The notes under the pieces: model-generated
What the model saw: the letters and a program-made list of their open reading frames with translations, nothing else
Database searches by the model: none
Told to the model about the DNA's origin: nothing
Assembly (NCBI RefSeq): GCF_002775205.1
Contig: NC_036460.1
Coordinates: 24,298,751 to 24,362,750, forward strand
Reading direction: 5' to 3'
Origin: Xiphophorus maculatus
Lineage: Eukaryota > Chordata > Actinopteri > Cyprinodontiformes > Poeciliidae
DNA length: 64,000 nt
In this document: positions 1 through 58,072 of the stretch, in pieces
How the letters are laid out: each line of letters opens with the position of its first letter
How positions within the stretch are numbered: the stretch's first letter is position 1
Position numbers and translations under genes: made by a program

Positions 1-388
1 TGTGCCTCCACTGGGAGGGAACGGTGCCATTTGGCCTTTATGTAACTCTGATTGATCTTTGATTTTAGACCAACCAGATTTTATGTTTTATCACCCGTCA
101 AAAGTGGCTGTGTTTCTCGAATGAGCACTAATTACATTGTGTAGACAGTTCTTTACTTGAGCTTTGCTGTAGCGAAAGAGGAAAGACGCTGTATTGATGA
201 ATTGGCAAACAGCACAGACTAGATGTTGCAGGGGGATTTTTATTCGCAGATTCTTTGATCGAGTTCAAAAATGAACCAGCTTGGTTGTAAATGTTTGTAA
301 AGGAACATACATTGATCCTGGGGGACGTAGATTTTAATCTCGGCCTTTTGCAGCTGCTATATAGTGACATGTATCCTATGGAAAACAG

Positions 389-3300
389 GGAATTCTGGGT
401 CTGAAGGAGCAGGAGCTGAGCCTCACGCTGCTGCTGTAAATGGGAGAGGTGAGCGAATCGTATGATGATGTAGCGTCGATGTTGCGCCACCGACTTTGTT
501 TCAATGCTTTTGTTTATGTATCCTCCTGACAGATGAACGACTTAATTTATGCTGTGAAAAATGCAAATCCGTCCATCAGGTGAGCTCAGAAACCAGATGT
601 GTTTTATATATAGTGTTTTGTTTTGCTGGTGCCGTGCTGTGACACTGCACCAGGTTAGAGGTTTCTTCAGTTTCAGCATTTTTGCCAAAGTCATATAAAA
701 TATAGTTTCCAAATTTTATGTATTAAGGGGAACAAAAGCTATCTAAATTAACCTGGTCTGCAGCATAGTGTCATTTAACTGAGACCCATTGCCTGATGGC
801 AGGACAGGTTTTGTGGTAGAGAAAATTTACGGTCCATAAATTAAGTCGTCCTGTGTCGCCTTGAAGAAGCAGAACGACCCCAGAAACATTGCCATTACAT
901 CTGACTGTCACCGTATGATATTTTAAATTTCTTTTCCTCAAATGCTGGATTAAGTGATTTCCGGATTCCACGGGTCAAGCCTCGGTTTCAATGTGGTTAA
1001 AACAGTTAATTCATAATTTAACAAGAGGAAATTTACTTTTCCTCAAAGGGCTGGGTGGCTCTGCACCGCTTTTTTCCCCCTTAAAAATAACACTATTTTC
1101 GTATTTTCTCTGGTTACATTTTTTAAATTAAATTTATTACGGTCTGAAACATTTAGCTGTGACGAAAAAAGCTAATTGAGAAGAAATCTGAAAATACATC
1201 TAATCAGCAATCTGTATTTTGCAGATTACTTTTTTATAAGCCTAATTTCCTATTTTATTCATGTTATTTGTATTGCTGTTGTACTGTTAGGATGATGAGT
1301 TGTGTGTGTTTCTGACAGACTCACGGCACGGAGCTTGTTACTCCTCAGAGGATGTCTAAGGGACGTTTCCAGTGAGTGAGATGCGGCGTCTCTGCAGCAG
1401 ATTTCGACGCAGTAAAACGTGCCGCCACTCATTCTGTGAATGTTTGTAGGTTGGCGTTGGAAGGAGAAGGAACGTACGAGTGTTCGGTCACCGGTCTGGT
1501 CTTCCAAGCAAGCGAGCCGGTTCTGGTGCGGTATTCTATCCTATCTTGGTCCAAGTTTGGCTCCTTCCTGCCGAACTCCTGGAAGTTTGCCGGACCGATC
1601 TTCAACGTCGACACCGTCAACAAGGACGCGTCCGTCCTCACCTCTATCCAGTTCCCCCACTCCATCTGCTTAGCCCGTAAGAACATCGGCGCTTTCTTAA
1701 CGTCTTTTTAACAAGGCGCACGGTTTAAAAGAGCTGAAATGAAACTGGTGTGTTCCCAAAGATCCAGAGGAGGACCTGACCTTCAGCGTCCTGCACGTTA
1801 AAGACAACCGTCCCCTCATTGAGCCGACCGCAGACCACTCAGGAAGCCACGTGAAGTGGAACGTGACGTCCCTCTCGCCGGTCGGTCCCATCATTCAGAA
1901 GTCAGGGTCTGTGGAGCACCACGGGGTGGTTCTGGTCTACAAGCAGCTCGGCAGCGACGCCAACAACTACAGCTTCCACGTCTACCTAGCGACAAACAGC
2001 TCCTCCGACATTAAAGTAAGCACCGCGCAACTTAATGTCAGTCAGTCGTCTCTAGTGAGGAACCAGAGGCATTCTGGAGGAGTTTTGGCTGACAGCAGCT
2101 CTGCTGTTCCAGAGAGGAGTTTATATCCACTCCTTATCAGTAAGCATTTAATCACATGATAAATCAAAATGAGTTTGATAATTAATGATTAATTATCTAA
2201 TGACTAATATTATTTGAAAGGCAATTTTGCAATTGCAATTTTGCTCCAGACGTCATCATCCATTTTATTTATAGCTTCTGTTTAACATGGTTTCTACTTC
2301 CGTTTTATTTATTGTTTTTGGCTGTGTTTTATTTCGGATGTTTAAAATACCTTTGTTACAAAATTAATGTTTCTTGGTTTTTGAGAGAGTAAATTTACAT
2401 CATGATGACATTTTCAATATATTACCGGTACTTCAAAATGACAATATTATTGCTTATCGCAATAATTACTGGGACAATTTATTGTGACAGGCCTACTTAT
2501 AAAAATGAAAGGCTCATTTCTGGCATTTTAATGATAAATTTAAGTTATTCCTTCACCACAGTGAGATGGTGGTACAATAAACACTTTTAATGAATTTTCA
2601 TATCAGGTTTTCTGAAGCGTTCCCGGTAATAAATCTTAAGTCCACAAATATTCAGAAATGTTGAGGTCAAGAGTCTTAATTTCAGCCTTTTTTCCCTCTG
2701 TTTTAAAATCTCTCTTTTTCTAAAAGTTTGCAGCAGATTGCCAAGCGGCCTGGGTTTCAGACCAGGAACAGCTGCACTGATGACTGTAGCCGCGGCTCTA
2801 ACATTGAGCCATGTCCTAAAACCAGCTTTGATACAAGTTTAGGATTATTCTCTTGTTAAACACATAATTGAGTCCAAATTTAACTATCTGTTAATTTCAG
2901 GTGAAGATAAAAATTGAGCAGGTAGTTTTTTTTTCTTGTTTGTTATTGTGCTATGCACCAGTACAACGGCAGTATGCACAATAGCTTAAATGTGTTAAAT
3001 GAGTTTAAACACATACAAATGGATACCTTCCATTTTTGCCAAATCGCACATCTCTTTTAATAATTTATTTGAAAATTACCTCCTTCAAGTCTGCTGTTTA
3101 TCATTGTGACTAAATAGCGTAATCGTTGAGACAGTACAAGTTTTCTCCATGAAATAATTGGGAGATTTTAGGTGGCTTTTTCATTTGATGAAAAACTCAC
3201 ACCTTTTGCTATTTGTATGTAAATTTCACCTTAGGAAAATCCCAGTTCAAGTAAAGGATTACTGGTAAGACGATGAATGAAATTCATACACGTAATGGGA

Positions 3301-6300
3301 ATATGCACAGAAATTGTAGCTGTGCTGTTATTGGCAGCATCTTGCAGCTGTGAAACAAAAGTAGTTCTAAAATTAGGTCAGATTTTTAAAAAAACATTCT
3401 GTAGTTTCAGGATCCTGTTTTATTCGTGATTTCAGTACCTGACTGTCACCAAACTGCCCGCTTAAAAACCCTTTTTAGAAAAAAAAAAACCTTTCTTATC
3501 TAACAACTATCCACAAAATTTCAGTGGTGATGCGAAGAAAATGTTTCCGTTACATAATTAGATACTGTACATGTGCAATTACTGTTTAAACTTAATTACG
3601 TAAAATCCCTTGAAAAGCCCTTGTGAATGGAAAATGTGAAATAATTACGGTATTTTGGGGGCAGTTTTGTCATAAAATTGACTGTTAGAAACTGTTGGGT
3701 TTCCAACATCTTCCACAAATAAAAATCTAAAAGGTGTGCCATGCCTTTTTATGCAACCCCTTTTACTTTGATGCCCCTAAATCTGCTACTTATTCCATTT
3801 AAAAGTCACCCAATTAGTAAATGGAGTCCACCTGTGTGTTATTTAAGTTTAGTAAAAATCTCTGACAAATTATATAAATTTCTCTGTATTTTTCTAGCCT
3901 TTTACTTAACTTAATATATTTCCCTTCAACTTAATAGTTGTGCATCACCTTGTTTGACAGATGTTGGTACAATTAGCATCGAGGTTTGTGGTTGTAATTG
4001 GACAAACTGTGTTAAAGTCTTGAGGGGGGTGAAGGCAGGTTTACACAGTTCCTGTGTCCAGTGATTTCTATTAATTTACAACTTTTTAAAAATATTCCTG
4101 AGTGACTAAATGGGTGTTTAGATTCAGGATTTTTTTCCCCCCTTTTGTGTGCAAGCACAACCAAAACAGGAGAGGGAAAAACAGCCAAAACAAAACAAAA
4201 CAAAACAAAAAAAAATATTCCGTCTCTACAGGGAGAAATATTCAACTCATCTCACACTTTTGATCAGCTCAACTGTCCGAGGCTAAAACTCCAGCAAAAT
4301 GCCTCACCTTTGAAACCGCGTGTGGAAACCCTAAGAACAGGCGTAGAGCTAGAGGTGACTTTCACTTCTGTTCCTGTTTGCGGCCGTGATTGCTTTGATT
4401 TCATCATGCTTCACATTTCCAAACTTGCTTAACACAGTGGTCACTAGCATTACTCCCTGCCTGATGGTAATATTGAGCTTTTTTTGTGAGGAGGTAAAAA
4501 AGTCAGAATACATTTTTAAAAAAGCCAGAGAGCGCCACACACACGCCTTTGGACGGCTGCATCACGGGAAGCAGAGCAGCTGTGATGTCATTCGGGAAGT
4601 GTGAATGTGGCTGCATGAACATGAACGTGTGGGCCTGGGAGGATCCAGCTGATGAATAATAAAACCAGATGAGAGATGCCAGTTCTTTAAATATGTTTGC
4701 AGTCAGTTTTTCCCTGCGGTTTCTCAGCTTTCGTGATTCTTTTGTTCACCAGGCTGAACTTGGAGTGACCTCTTCCTGCAAAACACCGTCGTTGGGGTTA
4801 TTTTTATCCCACCTGTTGTTGTTGCTGAGAAACCAAGCCTCTTCTTCATCTTGTTTTCTCTCTGTGCTGCTGCCATTTCAGGATATAGGCAAACAAGTCC
4901 GGGGCTACAAGAATCGATACATGAAGATCGATAAGCCTCCCACGTGTAAATTGGACGAGGGGACGTATCGCCTCGTGAGCGAACCGGAGGGGGAGATCAA
5001 ACCTGAGGTGTGTCTCTTTGCGTGTGGATAAGTCATGTTCATAAAGCATAATTTAGACTGGGTCATGGTCTATGCAGTAAAAATTATGTCAAACATCTTG
5101 GGGAAACTCTTTGAGCATTCTCAACCTGAAACATTGAAAATTGTTTAAAACTGTTAGATTTTAAACAATTAAAAACAGATCACTTGTGATCTGTTTTTTT
5201 TTTTTTTTTTACTTATTTATGTCTTTATAAGATTCTCCCAATCAGTGGGATCATTTTGTACCTCTTTGAAAAACATAAACAGTTTTTACCCAGCCTCATT
5301 TTAGCAGTATTTGAGAAACATATAGAATGTCCATTGCCTTCCTATACAATTCTGCTCGATTCTCATCTCTTCAGTGCTCCATCTGGGCTTTCTGCCATTG
5401 AACTCGATTTGTCCGGTAGAATTTCAGTCGAGCCAATCAGTGAACGGCAGGAGAAGTTGTGACTGCTTGCCGTTTATTTTCTGTGATGTTTTAGCAACGG
5501 CAGTGGAGGAAGTGAACGAAGCCCTTCAGTCCCTGTTTTCCACGCTTCCAAATGCTGAGCGATTGAAGTCGGAGAAAGAGGAACGTTTAATACATTTCAT
5601 AAGATCTCTGCGAACCAAAGAGTAGCACAAGGCGCTGATTGTTATGGTTGCTAAGAAAAGTTTATTGAAAATGATTCATGTGGTGCATAAGAGATTTTAT
5701 CAAGACTGTAGACAAAATTAACGTAATGTTTTACTCTACAGGTTATGTTTTAGAGTTAATACAGTATTTATTATTAAAAAAATGTTTAGATGTTTGTCAG
5801 TTCCATTTTTAATGTGAATGAGCCTACTCTGCTTTTAAATTGATCTGTGACGAGTGACTACCACTTCTGGAGGTTATTATGAACCTGTAGCTACTGTGAG
5901 CCATGATGAGTGTGAGGTGGTGATTCAGTGACACAAAGCATAGACAGCTGCTGAAGATGCAGGAGTTCACGGTACGCACAGGCTGAATGGCAGCTCCAGA
6001 GACACACTTCAGTTTATTGAGAGGTGACCAAAGACCCAGGCCAAAGTACGCCATTTTGTCTTCCAGGTAGGGCTTATGGGAAGCTGGCGGACCAAAGTTA
6101 AATCTTTGGGATTCAAAGGTTTAGCATCTGAATCCCAAACTTGGATACTTTTCTCTGTTCGAAAGGTTCCAAAAAACAGTTAAGTCAAATGAAATAAGTC
6201 CAAATTCTGTGGAAAATCCTTGACTTTAAACTTCGAAGAGAGACGTTTGATAGAACTTCAGATAAAAATAGATTTTAATCAGCTTAACTAATACTTTCAT

Positions 6301-9261
6301 TTACCCTAAAACTATCTCTACATACAAGTTGTGCTGGTTTTATGTTTGTCCAGATGTGTTGCGAAAGATTTCCATTTTCCATTTTTAATTGCATGTGTTT
6401 GGTATTTTGTTTTGATCAACATTTCCGCAGACTTTCTGAAGGCCTTTCATTTGGCTGCCTTGCACCTCTTGGTTGACGTGGAGAAAATAGTCATTACCTT
6501 ACAAAAACCTTTAGGTTTTGTGTCTCACGGCTACTAAACCATGTTTGTGTCTCATTAAAGGAGCTGAAGTTCACGCTCGCTGTGACCAAGATGAAAGGCT
6601 ACTTTGAAGCTTTCTTTGAGGAGCGGCCTCCTTTCAAACTGTCTCTAATAGAGATTAACACGGACGAGACTGTCTGGTCTGCCACCATCAGAGAAGGTGC
6701 CAGCGTGTTTATTCTCCTGCTAACATGTTTATGATGCTACACTGGCTTGAAAAAAAAATCTTTATTCTTCCATTTCAAATAGTAGCGTTAAATTGTGCCT
6801 CAAAATCTGGATCACATTTAATATCCATGTTGTGTTTTTTAAACTTTATAATAGAAATGCTTCCCAATTTATAGGATATTTTTGATAACATTGGTTGTGT
6901 AACAATGTAAATCGATATGTTTAGTAGAGTTATTAAAATCAGAATTCGGTTACTCCATTCAGTGTATCGGTAGGTGGAGCATAATCAACACATTTTGATC
7001 ATATCACAGCGATCTGTTAGGATTTAGGTGGAATTAATTGTATTCGTCAATATTTAATCACATGGGAGTCCGATAGCTCCTCGTGTCGTTTTGTTGAAAG
7101 CCGGTTTCGGCCGTCTGCTGAGATTTATAGTGGATGTTTTACTTTGATTATATTCTGTGTCGTGTGATTGATGTCCGTTTTTTTTTTTTTTTTTTTCTTT
7201 CAGGCGACTGTGTGGACAACTCAGAAAAAAAGCCAAGGAAAAGGACAATCTGTACGCTCCTTATTCGGTCTTCGGTGGGAGACAGATATTCCTTCGTGCT
7301 TTTGGCCTCTGCAGTTTGACTCGAATCAATCTGTTTCTTGCAGCTGGCAGACAGGGAAGCAGCAGCCACTCGGAAGAAGAAACGGCCTGTAAAAGACCAA
7401 AGTGGCACGACGAGTCAGGTGAATCATCATCCGTTTAATTGGATTACATTGAATTCAGTTTAATTAATGTGGCTCCGATTCAAAACAGATTATATACAGA
7501 AGTATGTGATCAGCTCAGTCTAATCATATTGAAATATTATCAGTTGCATATGTTCCAGTGCTAGAAATTAATGTTGACAAGCCGACTATTTAAGATTTCT
7601 AAAGAAACATAGCTTACTGTCCCACAACAGTGGAGAGTTGGTTGCATTGAGTTTAATTTTGATTTGATCCCTTATAATGAACATGCTGGGACTTTAGAGA
7701 ACTGAAGTGAATAGAGACACTGGTTTAGGAAAACTTTTTACATAAAAGAAAAAGTAAATAGTCAATAGCAGCTCCTTTAGTGGCTTCATCTAGAAGAACA
7801 ACACATCTAAATAATGAGCTGTGAGATAATTGTAAAATCCATGGGATGAAAAACAGAGTAGGTATTGCTGGTCGTGCCAATAGCTTCTTTAATTGCTTTG
7901 TCTAGGAGATGAACAGACGTCTCACTGCAACTTGCAGGATAAGCTGAAGGCTTTTAGCTAAACTTTTTAGGTTTCTTTATGGTAAAATGAACAACAGTTC
8001 TACCTGGTACTGTCGGGGATAAGATATTCTTCATTTTAGTAATTTTGTGAAGGTGAAAAAAAAAATCCTGAAAACCTGCTAAACATGGGATTACATTGTG
8101 TAAAACGAGCATATCCAAAACATCTGAGGTTAAAATAAATAGCTTTTTTTTATTGCGTTTTTTTTTTTTTTTTTCTCAGATGGAGTGAAAGCAGGGAAGA
8201 CTCAGGGTCAGGACTTGTCAGAGAAGCAGCTCCTGAAGATCGCCCGTCAACTTGGAAAAGAGTGGAAGGAGGTGGCCATCTTTCTGGGCATAGAGAGTAA
8301 ATATGTGGATGACCTCCAGGTTGCGGAAAACTGTGTGAGCATGCAAAAGCTGAAAATGCTGTTGGAGTGGAAAAAAAGGCAATCAGGAAAAGCTACAGCA
8401 TACCACCTGTTGTACAGTTTGAATGATTTGGACTCCTTGTCGATCGAGGTTCGTAAGGTACTGAAAGGTATGACCAAAGAATACACACATTCTTGTCTTT
8501 TTTCCCCCTTCCTAACATAAAGTCTTTTTTGTGCACAGCTAAAATAGTTCTTGATCAGTAGTTCCTTGAGCTTTCTTAAGGTTTTTGCGATTTGAATGCT
8601 TTTTTACTAACTTTCCTGACCATTATTGCATTTTAGCCAACTTCACCAAGCCTGTGCCAGAGGCCAGATAGATATTTTTTTCTTTTTTTTTGTAGCTATA
8701 GTTGGGTTGAGCGACAAACCTGACTCTGATTCAAGCAAAATTAAATAACAAAGTATGAACATGATTATTTAAAGTTTTGATTTTCTTGGTTTGGAGCTGA
8801 AGAGGCTCCTCTGCCACAATGTTGTCTGCTGAAAGGTGCTAGCTAACGACGAGCTAACGACCAAAAGCCCATATTTGATTACCAAGCTCTGGGGTGTTTT
8901 AATAAAACTACGACCTACTTACATTAAGAGAAAGAAGGTTGTACTTTCTATCAATGACAAGGAAACTGAAGCATCACGTCATGTGGCACAAAACAGGTAA
9001 ACCCCGCAAGATCAGTCAAACATGTATTAATGGAAGATGAGGCATAGAAAAAAAACCATTAATGAAATGTTTGTGTGGGGCGGTGCAGTTGTCACAAGCA
9101 GGACTTTCAGTCAGTTTTCTTATTGGTTTTGCGTGTCTCTCATTACATTTACTGCTTTATGGAAAAAAAAGAATACTTTTTCAAGACTGAACTGAATCAA
9201 ATTTATATGTTTTTTTTTTCTTCTGTTTTTAGGTATGATGGACAACCGAGCTGATAAGTAA
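389..9261 (+). CDS. FIIND (ZU5-UPA) plus Death domain protein, gene A, 5' partial
   Basis: Exons by splice signals: 389-448, 533-579, 1319-1371, 1450-1676, 1762-2015, 4882-5007, 6561-6696, 7204-7251, 7344-7418, 8180-8467, 9233-9261 (TAA). They join in one frame, giving 446 codons plus an incomplete first one. The 389 exon starts in phase 2, so more 5' exons lie before the window. Order: short Ala/Gly/Glu linker, a cysteine cluster (CCEKCK), ZU5 with the FIIND signatures SWKFAGPIF and LPH, UPA, then a DD (LSEKQLLKIARQLG, a Trp in the GKEWKEV helix, LLEWKKRQ). It aligns through the FIIND with human NLRP1. The autoproteolysis His (codon 1848-1850) and Ser (1875-1877) are kept. NLRP1 and CARD8 end in a CARD; here a DD takes its place, as in PIDD1. 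The N-terminal partner of this FIIND is unknown; from gene B it could be a caspase, from NLRP1 a NACHT-LRR. Family call is strong; the 389-448 exon is the least certain. Confidence 0.85.
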
Positions 9262-11564: not shown

Positions 11565-14500
11565 ATGACAGGTCAGAGAACCAACTTTGAAATTTAAAGA
11601 TGGTACTTATCCTGTGTTGTATTCAGAATTAGAATAAACTTTATTCGTCAAATTTGTACACAAAAACACGGATTTTGATGTTGGTTACGCTTTTCTCTGA
11701 ATCCGGGGACAAGCGTAAAACATCCAGCCGTCCATTTTCTTTCGGGACGGGTTCTGGTGCTCATCTCCAGCTGCCGGTCCGGGCGAGAGGCGCCATCTGT
11801 GGGATATATTTTTTCGGATCCTTTGAGTTATTTAAGGGCGACTCCACCCAATTTTGCCACTACCTTCAACATTTTTAATCTACTTTAGTTAAAAAAAACT
11901 ATAACACCCAGATTCTTCAAACCTGGTCTAGATTATTGTCAGCTAATAGCAGACTATTTAAAAGCAAGTTTGTGAAACATTGATCTGATTTGTAAAACTT
12001 CTGTAACGGGCTGTTTGAGCCAGTGGCTGATGCATCTGGATCACACTGGATCTGCTCCAGCTGCAACACCTGGACACTTCAAAGGGGGACGAGATTACTC
12101 TATTTTATTGGATAAATAATTTGACCAGAATGAAAAGAAAAGTAAAAACAGGCAAGTGCTTGTTATTAGGACTAGTCCTAGTTAAAACCATGAAAAGAAT
12201 GCTCAACTTCAACCTTTTAAACATTTTTATGTCACAGCTTTTCTTTGGCTTTAGAAATATGAACATCTATTTCTGCTCAGAGTTACATGAGAAGCTCTTC
12301 TCTCTCACTGCAAAAAGAGACATTCGGTTATGAATCACTTGAATTATTATTTTATTTTTTTGTGCATGATTACGTTTTGACACTCATATTGTTTCAGCCA
12401 GTTTAAATTCTCTTACCTCTCCTCCTTTTGGCCAATGTTCAGTTTGTTCCACTGCCTCAGCCCTCGTTAGTGGTTTTGTGATTTCCAGTGGATGCCTGTG
12501 TTGCATACAAAAAGACAATGTTAAGAACTGTTTCCTAAAAATACAAATATTTACTTTACATTTTAATAAAGATGATTTACAAAACTTTCCTTTTTCTTTA
12601 TGCTTGCCTGTTTCGTTATTCAATACCCCGTTTTCTCCTCACCTGTTTCTATTTATCTTTGTTCTGACCAATGGACTTTGAAAGAACAAATTTCTTTTCA
12701 AATTTACTTAAATGTCATCTCGAGGAACTTTACCGAAATCATTCCAATTCAATCATACATGCATTCCATCTGATTCTATCAAAAAAAATGCATTTTATCT
12801 GGATTTGCATATGTCTAAGTATATGCATACATACATCCATGCCCACACTAACTCATATGCTTTAGCCCCAATTTGCATATTTTTTAAAAATTTTTTCTAT
12901 TAGCCAATTCACCGTTGCCACATCTGTTTGCACCACCTGCATTTTGTTTGATGAGCAGTAAATTTTCTTAATCAGATATCATAGATCTATTTAAGAATTA
13001 ATGTACTATTTTTTTAAATCTAATGATTTAAGATTGGAAAATTACCAAAAGTTTAAAAAACATAATTCATCTGGTCCGGCACAACCTTGCTATCGAATGT
13101 TTAAACTAGAAATCTTATAAGTAATAAAATGCATATAAAAACGTTAAAATGGAAATGTCTAGTAATGCAACCTAAGCTACGTCAATGACTTTTTACTGAA
13201 AAAGCCAGTAATCTTCTGATACTGCAAACTGTAACAGCTTTCACTGCAGTACAGTTTTAGGATTAGAGAATAGGATACTCAGTTTTTTTTGACTCAATAA
13301 CAGTATTTAAATAATGATGATGACTATTTTTTCCCATGTCTTTGCAATTACAGGTTTGGTACTTCAGAAAGTGAAATATCGATTTGTGTACAAGGTGTCC
13401 AGACATGTACTTCGTCGTCTCGTGGACCTCCTTTTAAAAGACCATGTTTTGAATGGAGAAGAAGAGGATATAATATGTGAGGGAAGGTATAGTAGGGCCG
13501 ATCAGGCACGTAGTCTCATTGACTATGTGATCAGAAAAGGAGAAAGAGCCAGCACAAGGCTGATTTATCACCTACAGAACATAGACCCAGTTCTTCACAG
13601 TGAGTTGGGTCTGTCCAGTGATCAACCTGGTCTGTCAGGTAAGAGGAAAAAATGTTAGTTTAAAAAGCATAAAAATTGATGGATTTTTCTTTATTAAGAA
13701 GTATAGCATTCTTGTAAACTCAAAAGTTTAGCACAATCAAATCTTCAATCCCTAAATCTTTGAGGGTTTATATAGAAATATTACCTAATAGACACAAGCT
13801 CAGCAAGGCTTTTCGTCCGGTGCGCCAATGCCTGACCCCGGCCGAAGGGCCTTCAGTGCATTGTTGGGCTTTGGGAGATTAACATCTTATGTGTTCTGGT
13901 CCAAATGTTGGGGTGTTTGTAGGTTTTATTCTGGGGTGAGACTGGCGAACGGCTGGGTGGTTCAGGATTATATTCCAGTTCAAGTAGACTTTGTGTCAAA
14001 CTTAGTGTTATTGTACCCTGCCATAAAGTTCCAGTTTGCAGGTGTTACAGCTTGCAGTTATTATTTTCATGTTTAGTGAAACATTGCTCAGCCGAAATGG
14101 ATTATTTATCATTGGAAGGTAACCAAAAAAATAACAAGTTAAACTCAGTTTTTCATATTTAAGCTGATGCTTTGATGAGTAGCTCTTTGTCTTACATGGA
14201 TATATGACATTATAAACTGTCTATTTGAGAAAACACTTAAAAGGCATCTCTAGCGGTGCTCCTTTGACATCCACTTTCACTTAAGAAAGAGCAAACCAAT
14301 TCTTTAAACACGGTTGCTCTCCTCATTGTAAGCTGATGTCTTTTATTTCTGTTCTTTTTTTTTTTTTTTGTTATTTGTAACGACAAAACATGTAAAGCTG
14401 AAGCTTAATGCTCTGGTGTGTTGCATGCCTCCACATATATAAATAATCATGGTGGACCACCATTTCTTTTGGTCCCAGTCCAGCCATGACTCGGTCACAG

Positions 14501-17500
14501 GGGTCTGTGACCGAGTCATAAACGATAAATCAATTAGTCGTACAATAAATGAAAACTATCGACATCATTTTAATTATCGGCTTTATCGTTTCTTCCAGCC
14601 TTTTTCTCTTTCTGTTGATGACACTGAATGAAAACAGGCTCAACTCTGTGTGTGACTGTGTGTGATAATCTCACACAGTCAACCCCGCTCTCTTGGAGAA
14701 AAACTGGGCTACAAATCGACACTCTTGTCTTTTTTCTTTCTCCTTTTGAAAACTTGACTTTATTATGACATAGTAACTGCCACAGTCGTTTTCCTCTTCT
14801 ACTGACTGCTGCTGAACACCGTCGCCGCTAAGCAGGAAGGAACCATTTCATGCAGATTCAAAGGAGGGTTCAGTGTAAATTTGAATGTTTGCGTTTTGGT
14901 CTGGGAGTGCTAACATTTATTTGTTATTGATAAAAACAGTTTTAAAAAACACGATAAAGTTTAATTTGTAATTGACAAGGCTCCAGTTTTTTTCTATTTC
15001 CATGAAGAAAAAAAACAAAAACAAAACTATTTTGTGGAGGGCCCCCAGTCGGTCAGGAGTTGTCCTGACTTTTTCCCCCCTTTACCAATGCATGCATCCC
15101 TACCCAGAACCCTCAATGTCTATATTCAACTTCTTAAAGACTCTGTTTATTTTGCTAAAACAGAAAAAAGCTTCAGTTATATATTAATAATCCTACAGGT
15201 AAGAAAAACATGTCCTGAGTCCTTCGTTAGTCCACATTGAATATAGTTGCGAAAAGAAAGTTTTCAACTAACATTCAAGCTATTAAAAAAACTATATTTA
15301 TTTTTTTAGTCCAATTAACTCCATCTGTGCCAACTGTGGAAGACTTCTTGAAAACCATAAGGACTAACCCAGAGGTCAGTAATTAAATTAAGTTATAAAA
15401 TATCCTTAGTTTAATAGATCAGGTTGAACTTTAGCAACACGTTAGTGAATTTAATGGAAGAGAATCATCTTATGCATACCATGTGTGTAAACAAAATTAA
15501 TCAATCTCACATTCAGCAGTTAAAACATTTACACTTTTGTCTCCCTTGGCTCTTTATTCGTCTCTCAGGTCTATCCTGTGACCCAAACTTCCTTGAAGAA
15601 CCGCGTAGCTCTGCTGATCACTAATATCAAGTTTTCTGAGGAATCAATGAACAGAAGGGGAGCAGAGAAAGACGAGGAGAACATGGAGAGACTGCTTTCA
15701 TATCTGGGGTATGAGGTGGTGAAATACACAAACCTCACTGGAAAGGTACTTTATTCTAGATGAGAGACTAAATGAAACAGATTCTCATCTGATTGATTAT
15801 TTAATTTAATAACTGGTGACATGATTTTCTGTCTTCTTTCAGGCGATTGATGAGGCTTTAATTGACTTCACTAAACATCCCAAACTAAAACACACTGACA
15901 GTGTGTTTGTGGTTCTCATGTCTCATGGGAAGCTGGGGAAAATTCTTGGGGTTGACTGGAAAGAGGACAAACCAGATGAATTTCCAATCAACAACATTTT
16001 CAAACACTTGGGCTCCAAGAGTTGTCCAGAGCTAAGAGATAAACCAAAGGTCATCATCATTCAGGCCTGCAGAGGAGGTGATTCAAATCTGCTGCTGCAG
16101 ATACTAAAGCTCACTGTGAGTTAATATAATGGTCTCACCTGTTTGCCTTTTTTATGCTTCAGGACACAGTGCAGGTTATGTTCTACAATCTGAGAACCAT
16201 GCAGCAGACATGCTTCATCATTTAATTTTGGAAAAAGACTTCATTTACCTTTCATCTTGTATTCCTGGTGGGTTGAAAGCGACACTTTAGATGAACTTAT
16301 TGTAGTGGTTGTAACTTCATTGCTTTTTATTCCCTGCTCATCTTCCTTCAGACAATGTGTCGTACAGACAACGAGATCGTGGGTCTCTCCTCATCCAGAA
16401 CATTGTGGAGGTTTTCAGTCCAGAGTCGTATCAGGAAGATATTTATGGACTTTTTGAGAAGATAGAAATGGTAAGCAAGAAATGTTGAGTGTGAGTTTAA
16501 AAAATATATATATATATTTTTAAAATATTAGCTTAAATATAATCACTACAGATAAGCAGAAAAATAGCTTGTTACTGATTGATGCTGATTTAATCTTACA
16601 ATCTTTTTTTAATTGTTTCGTCCCAACAGGAGACACAACAATACTCTTTTGATCAACAAATGATGTCAGAGATGACTAGAAACACACTGACAAAGCATTT
16701 TTACCCCTTAACAGGAATCAGGTAAGGTGCATCTTGTTGAAACTCCTACTTTATCAACAACTCGCTTCAATCCTAGGCTTAGAAAAATGCCCAGTAATTA
16801 GATTAATATGGTTAAAATGATATATCCTATTTTACTTACCTTCAACATCATGCAACATGTTTATTTGTCTTTTTAAAAAAATATGTAATTAAAGAACAGC
16901 TTCACATTAGCTGCATTTCTATAATTTGCAATTGCAGTGTTTCAGTTAAATAAGAAATTAAATTAAAATCGCATGTGAATAAGCTTGTTCAAGTGATAAG
17001 TCAGTAGAAATCACAGCAGTGACGAATGTAAACGGTTCCATTAGATATATTAGTATTTCAGCCATGCCGCTAGCGCTCATCATCTATCAGAGGTCTCACT
17101 CAGGCGTTGCAATGAGAAATACTTGGGAGTAACTTTGCATGCAGCGTTTTGGGGAAATTGTAGTCTGAAGTTTTACAGAAGATGGATTCAACGTGTTTGA
17201 ACGACACAACTTCTTATGAACAGTGCGATGCAGTGAGATCTCTGGTGGAGCACGTCGTCCTAAAATGCCCCCAAAACAAATCTACTACTATTTCCTGTCC
17301 TAGAAACTGAACTTGAAGTGGGATTATTTCAGTGCTTTTGTAAAACTAGAAAATACAGCTGTCGACAAAATGAAGTTGTTTCAAAGTAGTGGATTTTACA
17401 AATACATGCTTTTAAGCTTGTATTTATAATTGCTTAAATTTACTTAATACGAGTCTGACTCAAAATATAGTAAAATATATCAAAATTTTAATATACTCAC

Positions 17501-20500
17501 TACACTTTTTCCACTGGGGTTGTGTCTTTATCTTTCAGAAAAATGAGTGTCTTGGTGAAGGAAGACAAAGGTAAGGTAATTTTCAGTCACTCCTTCTTTG
17601 TGTCCTTTTAGCTGCTCATCTTCTTTCATCAGAGGGCAAATGCTTTTCTTCATCTAAACTACAGAACTTACTAACATTTATAATAAATCGTTTTTTTTTT
17701 TTGCAATACTCTGCCTCTCGCTTCACTTCTTTCTACATAATTTAGAAATGGCTCTAGTCTATCTGCTCTGTCATGACAACACACTAGATTAACACAAATT
17801 GTGATTGTATTGTGCAGCTTTACTGATGGCTTAAGCAAAAATACAGTATAACAGCTTTAATTGAGATTTAACAGAGATTCTTTATTATTGGGGTGATCAC
17901 ATATACTTTTCTTGAAATATTTAATTTTTTTTCTAATGTTGAAAACGTATAATAATTGCATCTTATTTGTATAGACACAGTTACAGATGCATTCTCAGAA
18001 AGTGAGGGCTGTAGCTATGGTAAGCACAAATATCACATCACTTTGAAGGTTTAATGCTTGGATTAGATTAAACTATTTAATTGTCTGCTACATGTCAATT
18101 TATTGAACAAACAGGAACATCCACTAAGGTCAGCTCACACGAGAAGGAGGAGCAGGAGGAGCGAGAGGAGGATGAAGAAGATGAGCAGGAGGAGGAAGAT
18201 GAAGAGTCTGGTGAGAAACACACTTTAAACTACCTGATCACACCATTGGAACACATTCCTCATTTGTGGTGCCTAATGGGAAGTTTTAAAACCAGTTTGA
18301 AGTTATTGTGGGTTATAATAACGCTTCTGATATATTTTTTTCTTCCTTTTCCTCCAATGTGGTGAAGAGACGAGCAGCAAATCATGTGATCAAGCAGGAT
18401 GTTTAACCTGCCGCTTGGCTGCAGTCAAACTTAGTACATATAGGCAGATGGGCTTGTGCCCGACCCAAAAAACAAAACAAAACAAACCATCAAATGGAAA
18501 ACAAAAATGAAAAATTTGTTTTTGCACGTTTTCACTGGTATTTTGTATACTTGCACAAAAATCTGTTTGGTACCGTCACTGAATACATTTTTATATGCAT
18601 TTGTCTATATGTGTTTTTCTGAAATATAAATCCAAACTAAAACAAATTAACAAGCAAAATTGTTTGCAAACTTTTTCTTTAACAAACTCAAATTCTTTGA
18701 CAGCATAAGGAAGTCCCTAGCGGTTTCTTTTTGTTGCAGAAATAGACAGCCAAACTAAACCGATTCATTTTGATCATAGTGATTTCTACAGGTCATAAAA
18801 CAAACCAAAGTAGATTTTGCTCATCCAATGATATAATGTTTGTAGATAAGACAATTAGGGCCACTGGAACGTTTAGTTTCTTTTTTTGTTTTCAGTGGCT
18901 CTAAACCTCTTCTGTATCATCTGAACTTTTTCTAAAGGATCACTGCTTGGTTTTAAAAAAAAAATGTTTATTTTTACAGCTCACACATTCAAGTTCTGCT
19001 GTGAAAAATGTAAAAGCATCACTCAGGTGAGGTCTGAAACCTGATTGTAATTTCACTCCAACTTGCAAATAAATTAAGAAGCCTAATTTTTCCCTCTCTC
19101 ATCCATCTTTATTTTACTGTTAATATTTATAATTGTGCAAATAAATTACTGGATGTTCTCTCCACAGACCCACGGCACAAAGCTTGTTACTCCCCAGAGG
19201 ATTTCAAACGGACGTTTCCAGTGAGTGAGACACACCGTCTATGCGGTAGAAATGTACCCGTTAATCAGTGCCGTCACTCACACTGTGTGTCTGTGTTTAA
19301 AGAATGCAGCTGGAAGGAGAAGGCTCATACGAGTGTTCGGTCACCGGTCTGGTTTTTGAAGCAAGCGAGTCGGTTCTGGTGCGGTATTCGGTCTTATCCT
19401 GGTCCAAGTTTGGCTCGTTCTTACCCAACTCCTGGAAATTTGCTGGACCAATCTTCGACATCGACGCTGTCAACAAGGAGGCGTCTGTGCTCACATCCAT
19501 CCACCTCCCCCACTCTGTTTGCTTAGGCCGTAAGAGCAATTAATGTCTTTAATATTGAGCATCTTCTAAAAGAGTCGCCATAAAACTTTCATGTCTGATA
19601 TTTTCTAGAGACTCTTGACAATGCCGTGTCATTCAAGATCTTGCATGTTGTCGATGAGGATTTCAGTGAGGCTTTCATTGAGCCACCTTCAGGCTACTCA
19701 GGTAGCCACGTTAAGTGGAGCGTGAGGTCCCTGTCCCCCGTGTGTCCCATCATTCCAGCTGATGAACAGGCTGAATATCATGGCATGGTTATGATCTACA
19801 AACAGATGAACACCAACAACATCTTCCATGTGTACCTGGTCCTAAATAACGTCTCTGCCATTAAAGTAGGTATTATTTACCTTGGTATCGTTATGGAAAC
19901 TGAGTGATTTCTGTGAAGTTTTAACTGACATTGGTTTTGTGATTTTTGCTGTTTACTGACTGAAGGGAAAACTGTTTTTGTTTTTTAAAGTCAGACACTT
20001 TAGAGTAGGCGTGTTTTCAACATGTAGCCTTATAGCATTAACTTTTCTCTCTGACAGTTTTCAATACAGAGTAAATATTTCACTAATTTCCCCCCAAACA
20101 AACACAATTGTTTCTAATTATAAGAAGCAATTAGTCTATTTGAAGTTATTTGTTTCCACTAGTGTGCACACAAAAACAAACTCCATCCTCACACAGAGAA
20201 ATATTCCATTCATGAAATAATGATCATTGCAGACATGAAATCAGCTCAAATGTTCATGATTAAAACTCCAGCAAAATGCCTCACTTTTGAAACCGTGAGG
20301 AAACAGTAAGAACAGAATTAGAGCCCAAAGTAACTTTCACTTCTGCCCGTGTTTGCTTCCATTGTGGTTTTGACATTATCACGGTTCGCATTTCTATTGT
20401 TTTATATCACCGTGGTCACTGCTTTTATTAGATACATGAATATCTGATAGTAACATTGAGCAGGAGGAAATAAGTGAATGTTTATATTTAAAACCAACCA

Positions 20501-22365
20501 AAAATCAGCCGTGATGCCATTCTGGAAGTGTGACTGTGGTTGCAGGAACATGTGGGTCTGGGAGGATCCAGCTGGTGAATAACGACACAAAATGAAAGAT
20601 GCCAGTTCTTTAAATATGTTGCAGTTAGTTTTCCCATTTCTGCCGTCATCGTGTTTTCATTTTAATTCTCCTGGTTGTTGTTTCCAGGAACCCGATTAAC
20701 CCTCTACTTTGTTTTTCATCCTGCTTTACTGTTTACATTCAGGATGTATGCGAACAGGTTCAGAGCTACCAAAATAAATACGTCAGGGTGACTAAATCCT
20801 CCATGTGCAGACTGGTTGAGGGGATATTTCGCTTTTCGAGTGAGCCGGTGGGAGTGGTCAGACCTCAGGTGTGCATACCTCCATGTTCATGAATTATGAG
20901 CGTCATTAGGATTGGCTCATGCTCCCAAGTGTAAAATTACTAAAGCATCAAGTTGTGTGCAGGACTTTTGTGGAACTAGACGATCTTGGAATATCTTTTG
21001 TCAATATATCTGCAGGACTTATTTTTATCTTGCTGTAACTTTTGTTACAACAGCAAGAATAAATTTCCCTGTCTTTTTGCAGGAGCTGGAATTTACACTA
21101 GCTGAGATAGCGGTAAAAGGCTTTTTCGAGGTCTTCTTTGACAAGCAGCCTCCGTTTGAATGGTCTCTACGAAAGAGGAGAACGGATGAGGTCGTCTGGT
21201 CTGCCGCCATCAGAGCAGGTACCAGTGAATTTAACTAAAGAGGAGTTCCACACTTTGACATTGAAAGGAATCTTACAGGACTGTGGTTTATGACTTATTT
21301 TTTGACTTATTCTGTTAAATACATTAGTATATTTTCCAGGACATATTTATGTCGTATTCATTATCTTGTTAACAATACAGACAGCACATGTAACTACATT
21401 CTTTATTTTTAAGTAACTTAAAATGTGGTGTTTATTGCCACAGCTCCTCTGATGCTAGTTTACTTGTTTTACCCTTGAAATGGGTATTTGTCATTTTTCT
21501 ATTTGTCCATTGCTGCTAAAGCAATTTTATCAACATACAATTAAAAAAAAACAAAAGTTACAAAAATAAATCTCATCAAGTTTTACAAAAATAAACTTAA
21601 TCAATTTCTACTTGTATGTCCCTTTTTTGATCTACATGACATTTTACATCTGACCAATGATTTCATCCCTCCTAAAAATGTCTTAAGTTTCTACTTTTTA
21701 CTCATATTTCATTGTGGCCAAAAGGGTTACCAATCACACAGCAACGTTAAATTGCCCATAGGGATTTTATGCTGGTTTGTAGTTTGATTTTTTTAGAACA
21801 TGGATGATGTCAGTCATTTTCTTTTCTTTTTCTTTTTCTCCAGACGACTGGCAAGCTGCATTAAAAGAAAACCCAAGGAAAAGAGCCAGATGTATGCTTC
21901 TGTTTAGCTTTTAGTTAGACAGATTTTCCATCATATTTTTCAGGTTTTGTCGTGTTACTAACATTCACATCTCTGTCCCACAGGTGACGGTGAGAGTGTC
22001 CTTACGGTGTTCATCTTTTGATGACTTACTGGACAAAAGATGGATTTAGTTACTAAACAAAGATTTTCTAGTTAACTTGTGTCATTTTTCCAGATGAATT
22101 GAGAGCAAAGAGCCATCGGGGTCAGGACCTGTCAGAGAAGCAGCTCCTGCGGGTCGCCAGTAAGTTTGGGTCAGAGTGGAAGGAGGCAGCCATCTACTTA
22201 GACTTACTGAGCAAAGATCTGGATGACATCCTGGAGAAAGAGAATGATGTGACCATGCAGAAGCATAGGATGCTGGTAATGTGGAAGAACAGAAGGAGGC
22301 AAGGAGAAGCTACTGCGTCTGCCCTGTTGGAAAGTTTGAAAGATATGGATAAGTTGTCCACGTAA
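11565..22365 (+). CDS. CARD - caspase-1-like - acidic linker - FIIND - Death domain protein, gene B
   Basis: Exons: 11565-11571 (ATG), 13354-13638, 15310-15374, 15569-15745, 15843-16077, 16163-16267, 16352-16470, 16630-16721, 17539-17570, 17975-18019, 18115-18210, 18980-19026, 19168-19220, 19303-19529, 19609-19865, 20743-20868, 21083-21218, 21844-21891, (21984-21989), 22094-22365 (TAA). All phases agree and the total is a multiple of three, about 807-809 residues. CARD is at about 5-95. The caspase (about 105-375) has His206 in MSHG, Cys254 in QACRGG, an S1-pocket Arg in NRRGAE and Arg297 in VSYR. An Asp/Glu-rich linker spans 394-419, a CCEKCK cluster 426-431, the FIIND about 436-702 (His562, Leu570/Ser571 at the predicted self-cleavage site), and the DD about 730-809. 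Caspase-1 normally stops just after the FYLFPG motif; here FYPLTG continues into more exons. I know of no caspase-FIIND-DD protein, but could not search. It could instead be two neighbouring genes. Confidence 0.7.
13639..15309 (+). other. large intron of gene B between CARD and caspase
   Basis: A 1.7 kb stretch without convincing exons. It contains a GC-richer patch near 13.82 kb with an 82-codon open frame that has no recognisable domain and no good splice borders, a long hairpin at 14486-14519, and degenerate AT-rich sequence around 14.52-14.6 kb that resembles an old DNA-transposon remnant. Confidence 0.5.
14486..14519. repeat. perfect inverted repeat, 15-bp arms, 4-base loop
   Basis: ATGACTCGGTCACAG, then GGGT, then the exact reverse complement. 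It sits in an intron of gene B, beside AT-rich sequence suggestive of a decayed DNA transposon. It is a strong cruciform or RNA hairpin former, most likely a transposon end rather than a gene. Confidence 0.7.
17539..18210 (+). other. three linker exons joining caspase to FIIND
   Basis: Exons 17539-17570 (KMSVLVKEDK), 17975-18019 (DTVTDAFSESEGCSY) and 18115-18210 (GTSTKVSSHEKEEQEEREED and then more Asp/Glu). All are phase 1 to phase 1, so the set could be spliced in or out without a frame change. The last is a low-complexity acidic tract. None has an ATG that would clearly start a separate FIIND-DD protein, which favours one continuous gene. The exact 3' splice site of the second is ambiguous by six in-frame bases. 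Confidence 0.55.
17682..17687 (+). promoter_or_regulatory. possible internal polyadenylation signal
   Basis: AATAAA followed by a T-rich run, about 110 bases after the exon ending at 17570. Reading through that donor gives GKVIFSHSFFVSF and a stop. Together these could end a shorter CARD-caspase transcript before the FIIND exons. AATAAA is common in AT-rich introns, so this alone is weak. Confidence 0.3.
18980..22365 (+). other. FIIND-Death domain half of gene B
   Basis: Homologous exon by exon to gene A: 47, 53, 227, 257 (254 in A), 126, 136 and 48 bases, in the same phases. ZU5 carries GSYECSVTGLVF and SWKFAGPIFDID; the predicted cut lies in RSL/SPVCP with His at 19707-19709 and Ser at 19734-19736. 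UPA runs through the 126- and 136-base exons (FFEVFFDKQPPFEWSL, DEVVWSAAIRA). The DD is in the last exon. A's 75-base Ser/Glu-rich exon (7344-7418) has no clear counterpart; only a 6-base micro-exon could stand in its place. Confidence 0.85.
21984..21989 (+). other. possible 6-base micro-exon in gene B
   Basis: GTGACG is flanked by a good acceptor (CTCTGTCCCACAG) and a good donor (GTGAGA). It keeps the frame (adding Cys-Asp across the junctions), as does skipping it. It lies where gene A has its 75-base exon. Only RNA data can tell. Confidence 0.3.
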
Positions 22366-22868
22366 GTTCGCGACATTCTGCAAGGTACGGTCTACAGATT
22401 TCCTCCACTACAGTTTTCTAAAGGTTTCAAAGTTGTACTTTAAACTTTGACTTATTTATTATTAGTGTTGAGGCATTTAATCTGTTTGCAGCAATGCATT
22501 GTGCAAAGTCTGCTCAAAAATTCATAATATTCCAGTGGTAAATTATTGTTGCTGTAATATGATGAATTATTATGCTGCCATGTTTACAGCTTTCCCAGTG
22601 TTGCCCTCCTTCTCTGCCCCCTCTCATTTACTTTAGCCTAATATTGGATTATTTATCTATCCAATTCATACTTTTGTTGTTTATTCCTCCAGCAAAAGTC
22701 CAAGTCAGTGTACAAAATATTTAACAAATGTCCACAAAATATTGAAAAGAGACATGTATCTTTTGCCCCTCCCAGCAGCTAAAGCCAAATGATTAAATGT
22801 TGTTTTCTTTTCTGTTGCGTCTGCTTTCAGATTTAATGACGGCAGACGATGAACGCATGGACGAATAA
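22363..22868 (+). pseudogene. premature stop and orphaned last exon of gene B
   Basis: In gene A the DD exon reads through SIEVRKVLKG into a 29-base last exon. In gene B the GAG codon is TAA (22363-22365). Past it the old reading VRDILQ still runs to a donor at 22385, and a matching last exon at 22831-22868 still encodes DLMTADDERMDE and a stop. So an intact end was lost recently and about 18 residues are removed from the tail after the DD core. The change also creates a GTAAGT at 22362 that could act as a new donor. Confidence 0.75.
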
Positions 22869-27193: not shown

Positions 27194-27859
27194 GCACAAG
27201 CAAGACGTAACGTAATTTCCACATGATTTCTCCTTGAAACCCGATTATTCTATAAGACGGTGGGACTGCTCTGACTACAACCTGTACAGTGTGTCATGAA
27301 AGACACACAACACCCTGGATTCAGAGCGAAGGCGCAGCGACCCATCACCAGGGAGAACCAGCGCTTCCAATTAGAGCTGCATTAAGTTGGTGCTGTGATT
27401 GTGACGTGATCTCCCGTGCAGCGTAATATTGGTAAATTCTGCCTGTTCGGTCACATCAGCGCTATTAAAGGAGCGACAACCAGTGGCTAACAATTAATCA
27501 TGCCAGGAAGATCGCTATGCGGGGTCGTGAGGGTGAAGTGAATCACATGTGACATCAAACAGCATCATTTCACGACTCAAGAGCCAGCTGGAGGTCAGCC
27601 GGCCTGTCCGCGTGGGCCCCTCAAACGCAGGAGGGATTGTTATAAAAATAAAATAATAATATATTATAGTAGGCAGCTCAGAGCTCACTTTACAAAGATA
27701 TAGTTTGAACCGAAGAACACAATTCTACTTACACTTATCTTAAACAACAGGATTTACTTGATAAATAAATTTATTTATATAAATAAAGACAATTGATTGT
27801 CCCCACTCAGTCTCCTTCTCCTCTCAAAATTTCACAAAATTTGAAATAAGCATAAACAA

Positions 27860-28168
<309 letters not shown>

Positions 28169-28639
28169 CTCCCGTGTTATTTTTCATGTGATGGATTATT
28201 GGCAAATGTCTTCAGAAGTTTCACAAAATGCACTGTAACTTTCTAGCAAGAGAAAGAAAATTCTGGTGACTGAACAGAGAATCCCAAACCAACCCACACC
28301 ACAACTTGCTGCAAAATGAAAATGTTGCATAGACCATCTATCCGTGGAGCAGCTCATCCAGGAGGGAAACCCAGCATCGTTCTCCCGACCTCGTTCTGGG
28401 GAACTCCTAGGCTTTCACAGGCCACAAGACGTCGCTCAAACGTCGTTCACAAATCTGTGCTAGTGAACACTTTTCCGTTGCGGAGAAAATCCATCCCACC
28501 TCACAGGTGTGGTATATCGAGATGCTGGTTAGACTAGACAGCATGACAGACGTGCATTAGGTTAGTCACGATAAAAGGAAACTCTGAATTCTGCAGTTTT
28601 GCTTTTATTCTGGGTGGTGGGGAATTTGGGAGGGTAAGA

Positions 28640-29640
28640 AAACCCGTCACTATTTGGTGTTTCCACCATTTGCCTCATGTGGTACAACATCTTGGCCTAT
28701 TGACAGGTTGTTGATTGTGGCCTGTGGGATGTTGGTCCACTCGTCTCCAATGACTGTGGGAAGTTGCTGGATGTTGGCAGGAAGTAGAACACACTGATCC
28801 AGAGCATCCCAAATATGAACTGGGATGTTATCAGCTTCCAGTAGCTATGTCCAGATCCTGGGTCGTACATCATCATGCGGCAACATGAGGTGAAGGTCAA
28901 ACTAACGGGGTATCTTGGTGTGTTCAAAATGCCGTCAATAAAATACACCTGTGTTCATTGTTGGTAGCATATCATTGTCATCCACCGCCATGGGTCACTC
29001 CATTTATAACATCAGCATCACCCACACAACGCCACACACACTGTCTGCAGCCTGAGCAGTGAAAACCGGGACCCCTCCGCATAGAGAACACCTCTCCAAT
29101 GTACCAGACTCAATCAAACCTGAGCGTTTTCCATATCAAATCGGTTATAATGACAAAGTGCGTTCAAGTCAGGACTCCAATGAGGATGACAAAAATCCAA
29201 ATGAGCTTCCCCAAGACTGTTTCTGACATTTTGTAAAGGCACTGTCTGGTTTTGCAAACTGATTGTGGAAGCCGATGTCCGGGTGGCCGTCCTCAGACTG
29301 TCTTTCAGGTGACCAGGTGGAGGTGTGGCCACACGTGGTCTGTGGTTGTGAACATGATAATTGCGCTCTCCCTCAAAACCTGCAACGTCTGTGGCATCGT
29401 GCTGTGTGACAAAGCTGCAGATTTCAGAGAGGCCTCATTGTGGCGCTAATCCTGCTGTCCAGTCAGCATCCTGACACGCCACACCTGTAAGGGCAGGATG
29501 GATTATCTCGGCGAGGGGTAAAGTATTCACTAACTCGGATTTAGGCCGCTTTGTGAACAATCCACTCATATGCATGCCTCACAGAGTGTTTGAAGGGAAA
29601 CGCATTTCTTTGAAACTAGTTTTCTGCGTGTGGCTGCAGG
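28640..29640 (-). pseudogene. decayed Tc1-like transposon with transposase remnant
   Basis: On the minus strand, broken frames match Tc1-like transposase: near 29.1-29.33 kb a DNA-binding part (HLKDSLRTATRTSASTISLQ), and near 28.7-28.95 kb the catalytic part (QVYFIDGILNTPRYPVSLT, then SSNFPQSLETSGPTSH). Stops and deletions interrupt it, and the DNARPH-type segment is degraded. It is an inactive cut-and-paste element. Outer ends are approximate; non-coding transposon sequence seems to run to about 29.6 kb. The 28.17-28.64 kb flank shows nothing else. Confidence 0.7.

Positions 29641-31056: not shown

Positions 31057-58072
<27,016 letters not shown>

Follow-up and report, generated by a model that had tools for sequence, protein, structure and literature searches.

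A predicted CARD-caspase with a FIIND-UPA-Death domain tail in Xiphophorus maculatus

Do an inflammatory caspase and a FIIND module that lie side by side in a fish genome form one gene or two and, if one, what might such a chain do? The question arises at positions 11,565 to 22,365 of a 64,000-nucleotide stretch of Xiphophorus maculatus contig NC_036460.1 (the window), where a first-pass annotation had proposed a CARD-caspase fused to a self-cleaving FIIND and a Death domain (DD). Rebuilt from the window sequence, the spliced frame runs, as claimed, uninterrupted from the ATG at 11565 to the TAA at 22365; it comprises 20 exons and 809 codons plus the stop, with AG/GT at the internal borders of all 20 and with all phases fitting. 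When the translation was compared with Pfam, CARD (residues 6-89), Peptidase_C14 (131-356, profile 2-233 of 233), FIIND (450-578), UPA-FIIND (586-698) and Death (735-805, profile 2-74 of 86) all exceeded the curated cut-offs, and together with the acidic linker ahead of the FIIND they bear out the domain series that had been described. A CARD followed by a full Peptidase_C14 marks the first part as a caspase of the caspase-1 (inflammatory) type. The catalytic His206 and Cys254, as well as Leu570/Ser571 in the FIIND, were found at the numbers given to them. His206 and Cys254, like Arg148 and Arg297, are kept in the alignment with caspase-1, where the two arginines face what we take to be Arg179 and Arg341; this arginine pair belongs to the S1 pocket of caspases. 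We predict that the CARD-caspase and the FIIND-UPA-DD tail are read as a single gene with a probability of about 0.7, a value lowered from 0.75 because a tail-only model from Crenichthys (see below) had to be counted.

One gene or two neighbours

The linker exons 9-12 are open solely in the frame common to the caspase and the FIIND. This shared frame is hardly a product of chance, because the other two frames hold stops and because the same exons occur in a protein of X. hellerii. The latter is a predicted model, LOC116708286 isoform X2 (P0001, 820 residues), with all five domains and 96% identity to the window protein over the full length: 99.0% in the CARD, 97.3% in the caspase, 100% in the linker (58/58), 95.7% in FIIND-UPA and 95.4% in the DD. 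It begins with MAGLVLQ at a join equivalent to exon 1 and joins exons 9-11 to the caspase. The perfect linker was considered as a sign of selection and dismissed, being not significant at such divergence (about two changes expected by our own estimate).

The first-pass annotation had suggested looking through fish proteomes for a caspase and a FIIND in one protein. The protein collection was searched three times, in a first search and then in two follow-up searches that gave 606 and 284 matches (the best 120 of each were considered), clusters being represented by one member only. Besides X. hellerii, such models turned up in Girardinichthys multiradiatus (LOC124884047 X2, P0002, predicted; the same five domains at 55% identity), in Ilyodon (P0007, a partial model that begins in p10 and continues through FIIND-UPA-DD) and in groupers. 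Among the best 120 of the 606 and 284 matches, neither half of this pair was named as an X. hellerii protein of its own. Thus, the two five-domain models, the partial Ilyodon one, the shared frame and the exon correspondence described below favour one gene. The fused chain is already public under the label 'uncharacterized', and an NCBIfam search with P0001 matched no family.

Several observations weigh against a single gene. The spread of the fusion among lineages is narrow, and in five relatives the tail occurs in models without a caspase: three of them, from Gambusia (P0240), Poecilia latipinna (P0241) and Anableps (P0253), have their starting Met within exon 14, that of X. couchianus (P0245) has it within exon 15, and that of Crenichthys (P0008) consists of the tail and acidic linker with its own start. 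A Met at residue 363, in exon 9, might likewise start a separate tail. The X. couchianus caspase P0121 terminates in ...PLTGIR, and the next codon of the window is the TAA inside the exon 8 donor. In the tree of whole caspases, Girardinichthys is paired with a Xenoophorus caspase that stands alone (100/97), so P0002 may mix exons of two caspases. Finally, exon 9 corresponds to exon 2 of the gene upstream in length and phase only, its DNA score being matched by 62 of 100 shuffles.

Such evidence induces us to consider two adjacent genes, a CARD-caspase ending in GIR-stop by retention of intron 8 and a FIIND-UPA-DD gene from exon 9 on, with the fused models being annotation chimeras or rare read-through. 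This scenario, unlikely in our view, would account for the TAA right at the exon 8 donor and the stop of P0121 at precisely that point, for the tail-only models in five relatives, above all P0008 with its acidic linker and own start, and for the motifs ATTAAA (16888, 16957, 16962) and AATAAA (17682). It is harder to reconcile with an exon 8 donor that fits eight of nine consensus positions, with compatible phases and with the X. hellerii model that links exons 9-11 to the caspase. Moreover, four of the five tail-only models begin inside the FIIND or UPA and hence look partial, and no relic of the upstream gene's exon 1 was found before exon 9, albeit by an insensitive search. P0121 may also be a paralogue, since its identity to the window protein (86.8% in the CARD, 89.7% in the caspase) falls short of the 94% reached by P0245, the X. 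couchianus tail. The residues PLTGIRYVASC close two caspases of P. mexicana (P0127, P0131) and would fit read-through of AG/GTATGT; the splice donor may persist in these genes. If intron 8 of the window gene were retained, translation would stop after ...PLTGIR, and the same gene would yield a stand-alone caspase of 361 residues.

Alternatively, the chain may be made but be recent, weakly used or decaying, with the caspase or the tail losing function. The narrow spread, a C-terminus shortened by a TAA where relatives have Tyr, the diverged p10 of goodeids and P. mexicana, and the lack of a fused Gambusia, Poecilia or Anableps model among the best 120 matches of the first search could be read in this way. 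We regard it as improbable, given that the catalytic His and Cys are intact in the caspases of the window, X. hellerii, X. couchianus, P. mexicana and Girardinichthys, that all five domains pass their Pfam cut-offs and that the frame holds no internal stop.

Gene model, upstream neighbour and probable origin of the predicted fusion

The coordinates of the predicted gene are collected in Table 1. Although the frame to the TAA at 22365 stood up, the 3' end is uncertain. This TAA (22363-22365) sits where relatives read Tyr (LSTYVRD), and its bases also form a donor, AC/GTAAGT (22361), compatible with the X. hellerii C-terminus, so that the gene may end either at 22365 or after a splice to 22831-22852.

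Table 1. Features of the predicted fusion gene and its upstream neighbour (window positions)
Feature	Position	Strand	Remarks
Upstream tandem FIIND-UPA-DD gene (si:dkeyp-97b10.3 type)	385..8517 and beyond window start	+	exon 1 lies 12.6 kb before the window
Exon 1	11565..11571	+	start codon, ATGACAG, phase 1 out
Exon 2	13354..13638	+	CARD
Exon 3	15310..15374	+	linker between CARD and caspase
Exon 4	15569..15745	+	beginning of caspase p20; holds Arg148
Exon 5	15843..16077	+	p20; His206 and Cys254 (QACRG)
Exon 6	16163..16267	+	shortened interdomain linker keeping a single Asp (272), then start of p10
Exon 7	16352..16470	+	p10; holds Arg297
Exon 8	16630..16721	+	final caspase exon; donor CAG/GTAAGG overlapping an in-frame TAA
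Exon 9	17539..17570	+	32 nt; phase 2 in, 1 out; like exon 2 of the upstream FIIND-DD gene
Exon 10	17975..18019	+	linker; symmetrical phase 1; TVTD377/A
Exon 11	18115..18210	+	acidic linker; ends TCTG/GTGAGA as does the acidic exon of the upstream gene
Exon 12	18980..19026	+	47 nt (FKFCCEKCKSITQ); length equal to the upstream counterpart
Exon 13	19168..19220	+	leads into the Pfam FIIND match and covers its beginning
Exon 14	19303..19529	+	FIIND/ZU5
Exon 15	19609..19865	+	end of FIIND (His541, Glu553, Leu570/Ser571), start of UPA
Exon 16	20743..20868	+	UPA
Exon 17	21083..21218	+	end of UPA
Exon 18	21844..21891	+	linker from UPA to DD
Exon 19	21984..21989	+	6-nt microexon; in the X. hellerii protein as RCDDE
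Exon 20	22094..22365	+	Death domain; TAA 22363-22365
Possible alternative last exon	22831..22852	+	FNDGRR and stop, joined from 22361; agrees with the C-terminus of the X. hellerii model

Directly 5' of the fusion lies a FIIND-DD gene without a caspase, which was absent from the first-pass annotation. Its relatives occur in many teleosts with an SLS, not an SFS, cleavage site. With its borders for exons 1-7 read by eye, the gene opens with an exon 1 that holds the ATG and ends in phase 2, a 32-nt exon 2 (2/1) and a 33-nt exon 3 (1/1), followed by an acidic exon 4 ending in TCTG/GTGAGA, three further exons and exon 8 (47 nt). Its counterparts in the fusion are exon 9 (32 nt, 2/1), exon 10 (45 nt, 1/1), the acidic exon 11 with the same end, and exon 12 (47 nt). 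The exons that follow measure 53, 227, 257, 126 and 136 nt in the fusion, and only the third differs in the upstream gene (254 nt, a difference of 3 nt).

Judged by this architecture, the tail of the fusion is a tandem duplicate of the FIIND-DD gene that precedes it, and the last caspase exon, with its phase 2 donor, stands in the place of that gene's exon 1, because exons 9-12 match the upstream exons by length, phase and order. DNA similarity exceeded that of shuffled sequences for the acidic exon and for exon 8 of the upstream gene (0 of 100 shuffles as good in each case). A search for a relic of upstream exon 1 before exon 9 found none (score 17 against a shuffled mean of 18.5; 86 of 100 as good), and the same method also misses exon 2 versus exon 9. 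An alignment of 277 codons gives 61% identity between the FIIND-UPA regions of the two genes, with nonsynonymous divergence (dN) of 0.25-0.28 and synonymous divergence (dS) of 0.60-0.77. In the genome as a whole (704,300,149 bases, 101 contigs), the FIIND profile, applied exon by exon, matched at least 11 places on five contigs, two such genes being in the window.

Tandem duplication of the whole fusion was considered and rejected. No caspase match was found in the 10 kb before the window, the caspases of two relatives gave only short matches at chance level in the 40 kb before and the 10 kb after it, and the first exons of the upstream gene occupy the stretch before the window.

Phylogenetic trees bear on whether caspase and FIIND were joined once or several times. 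In the FIIND tree (25 rows chosen from the matches), the window and X. hellerii sequences group together (83/99) near the second copies of Gambusia and P. latipinna, the goodeid sequences, including Crenichthys, make up one group (100/100), and the groupers stand far off on a long separate branch; the relation between poeciliids and goodeids is not resolved by this tree. In the whole-caspase tree (28 rows), the window, X. hellerii and X. couchianus belong together (100/100), and the pairing of Girardinichthys with Xenoophorus speaks against a single poeciliid-goodeid origin, unless P0002 mixes two caspases. The tree of p10 only (22 rows) favours a single origin without reaching firm support: it places the six fused-type p10s on one side of a branch (83/95) that recurs in 84% of the bootstrap trees, and long branches call for caution. 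A single origin before the split of poeciliids and goodeids, both Cyprinodontoidei, is thus possible. A single origin of all caspase-FIIND models found no support as regards the groupers, given their separate FIIND branch.

The three Epinephelus models also place a CARD-caspase before a FIIND, but they differ from the Xiphophorus chain in belonging to another, NLRP1-like FIIND lineage, in the AFS site of P0015 and P0071 and in having a CARD in place of the DD. In P0015 (E. fuscoguttatus), which has the order CARD-caspase-FIIND-UPA-CARD, the caspase profile is complete, and this is the one model of the three with a full p10. P0071 (E. coioides) has the second CARD and the UPA and lacks p10 (caspase profile 2-130 of 233), and in P0114 (E. 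lanceolatus) both the caspase (2-208 of 233) and the FIIND (4-98) are cut. The grouper joining is probably separate from the Xiphophorus fusion, and its models may reflect real alternative splicing or annotation joins. In other grouper models (P0117-P0120) a CARD-caspase of this type is linked with a HECT ubiquitin-ligase domain (precomputed Pfam), and a Gadus morhua model (P0115) has, by eye, several death domains ahead of its caspase.

Elsewhere in the window, a 334-residue frame at 38538-39542 resembles, by eye, the end of a non-LTR (long terminal repeat) retrotransposon reverse transcriptase protein, and minus-strand frames at 28650-29434 look like a broken Tc1/mariner transposase. A long simple-repeat array at 27856-28191 gives SIYL repeats in all three plus-strand frames, and acidic exon-like frames lie on the minus strand at 39901-42130.

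The putative FIIND self-cleavage site

The first-pass annotation took the FIIND to cleave itself. The residues it pointed to are present: His541 lines up with His1186 of NLRP1 and Ser571 with its Ser1213, and Glu553 is there as well. The P1 residue, in contrast, is Leu570 instead of Phe, and the motif reads SLS, not the SF/S of FIIND proteins. To place this in the family, 261 proteins were fetched, of which 133 aligned to the FIIND above a score of 150; with the partial P0245 and P0253 dropped, 131 remained. The motif was SLS in 127 of them, VLS in two (Girardinichthys and Ilyodon) and AFS in two (groupers P0015 and P0071). Ser571 and Glu553 are kept in all 131, His523 in 130, His541 in 129 and Leu at P1 in 129; one of the two sequences without His541 is the second copy of Gambusia, which has Cys. 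Overall, the fish FIIND-DD family, as far as aligned residues tell, keeps most of the cleavage chemistry with a different anchor residue.

In CARD8, His252, His270, Glu279, Phe296 and Ser297 matter, and the F296H mutant is severely defective (PMC3210808). UNC5b has Leu677 at the position of Phe296 (PMC3210808), and in a study of the FIIND structure the FS motif is described as essential for catalysis (PMC8081665). NLRP1-type self-cleavage of the window FIIND is doubtful because the motif is SLS instead of SFS.

This bears on the proposal that the chain follows NLRP1/CARD8 logic, in which self-cleavage of the FIIND behind residue 570 leaves the caspase on the N-terminal fragment, whose loss then frees UPA-DD to signal. 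His541, Glu553 and Ser571 align with NLRP1 and, with His523, match residues of importance in CARD8; Ser571 and Glu553 are invariant in the 131 sequences, and the Gambusia tail has a predicted fold that most resembles the NLRP1 FIIND. Yet 129 of the 131 have Leu at P1, the residue also found in UNC5b, the F296H change leaves CARD8 severely defective, and the Gambusia copy has lost His541. The N-terminal-degradation logic is weaker than first stated because, with Leu at P1 and the His lost in Gambusia, its first step is insecure; we hold it to be quite unlikely.

A possible mode of action and its meaning

The closest structural match of the tail, judged from the predicted fold of the Gambusia copy, is NLRP1/CARD8, which share its order of ZU5-UPA (FIIND) before a death-fold domain. 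Unlike them, the window protein carries its caspase in the chain instead of recruiting a separate one, has SLS for SF/S, and ends in a DD (735-805) with no C-terminal CARD after the UPA. PIDD1 has N-terminal leucine-rich repeats and reaches caspase-2 through RAIDD. It shares with the window C-terminus the order ZU5-UPA-DD (PMC3210808) and with the chain the link to caspase signalling, and differs in its leucine-rich repeat region, replaced here by the CARD-caspase. No PDB chain of PIDD ZU5-UPA was among the matches listed for the Gambusia tail, which says nothing on relationship; 2of5_H, among those listed, is presumably the PIDD DD. The si:dkeyp-97b10.3 type upstream is a direct paralogue of the tail, with the same SLS and, save for the 3-nt difference, equal exon lengths and phases, but it has no caspase and a first coding exon of its own. 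Teleost caspase-1 (caspase a) shares the CARD, the caspase and the catalytic residues; stand-alone relatives end in FYLFQGLL.. or FYIFQGLL.., whereas the window protein, with a splice donor at that point, continues into a tail of 448 residues and has a short interdomain linker. Amphioxus caspases also show unusual death-fold combinations, but with DED or DD prodomains, and that text contains neither ZU5 nor FIIND (PMC3196919). Among the titles and openings of abstracts listed for the open-access literature searched, no caspase-FIIND protein was named. Fish inflammasome reviews mention FIIND in NLRP1; further literature drawn on was PMC9978379, PMC12436146, PMC8122782 and PMC6988351.

The reading we prefer, at slightly less than even odds, is that a FIIND-UPA-DD tail on a CARD-caspase would gather the attached caspases, which would then activate one another. 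UPA promotes oligomers in NLRP1 and CARD8, and initiator caspases start through proximity. UPA and DD might bring chains together or tether them to an adaptor with a death domain; caspase dimerisation would follow, and with it mutual activation. UPA is described as lowering the threshold of filament formation (PMC7794386). Since FIIND self-cleavage is not required for it, clustering through DD and UPA stands independent of the problem of Leu at P1. Once active, the caspase may cut the disordered linker (residues 362-419) and shed the tail. In the window this linker holds six Asp (371, 373, 377, 407, 410 and 416), and its acidic exon 11 is of low confidence or disordered in the predicted fold of P0001. 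A conserved caspase site was ruled out, the Girardinichthys linker having no Asp; tail shedding is thus possible but would not be a conserved feature.

It is tempting to go further and suppose a one-chain inflammasome, in which cluster module and protease share one polypeptide, no caspase is recruited and self-shedding of the tail is the off-switch. Such a device would have arisen two or more times among fishes, ending in a DD in live-bearers and related families and in a CARD in groupers, and a donor over the stop codon would yield either a plain or a tailed caspase. We consider this broader picture rather doubtful.

Known FIIND sensors recruit a separate caspase via an adaptor or a CARD filament. 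A chain with the protease attached would show which of the steps (recruitment, self-cleavage, N-terminal loss) are dispensable, and would be a ready tool for testing how FIIND clustering starts a caspase. The SLS family poses the question of whether an uncut FIIND can work, and the splice donor at the stop codon would show one route to a new immune protein.

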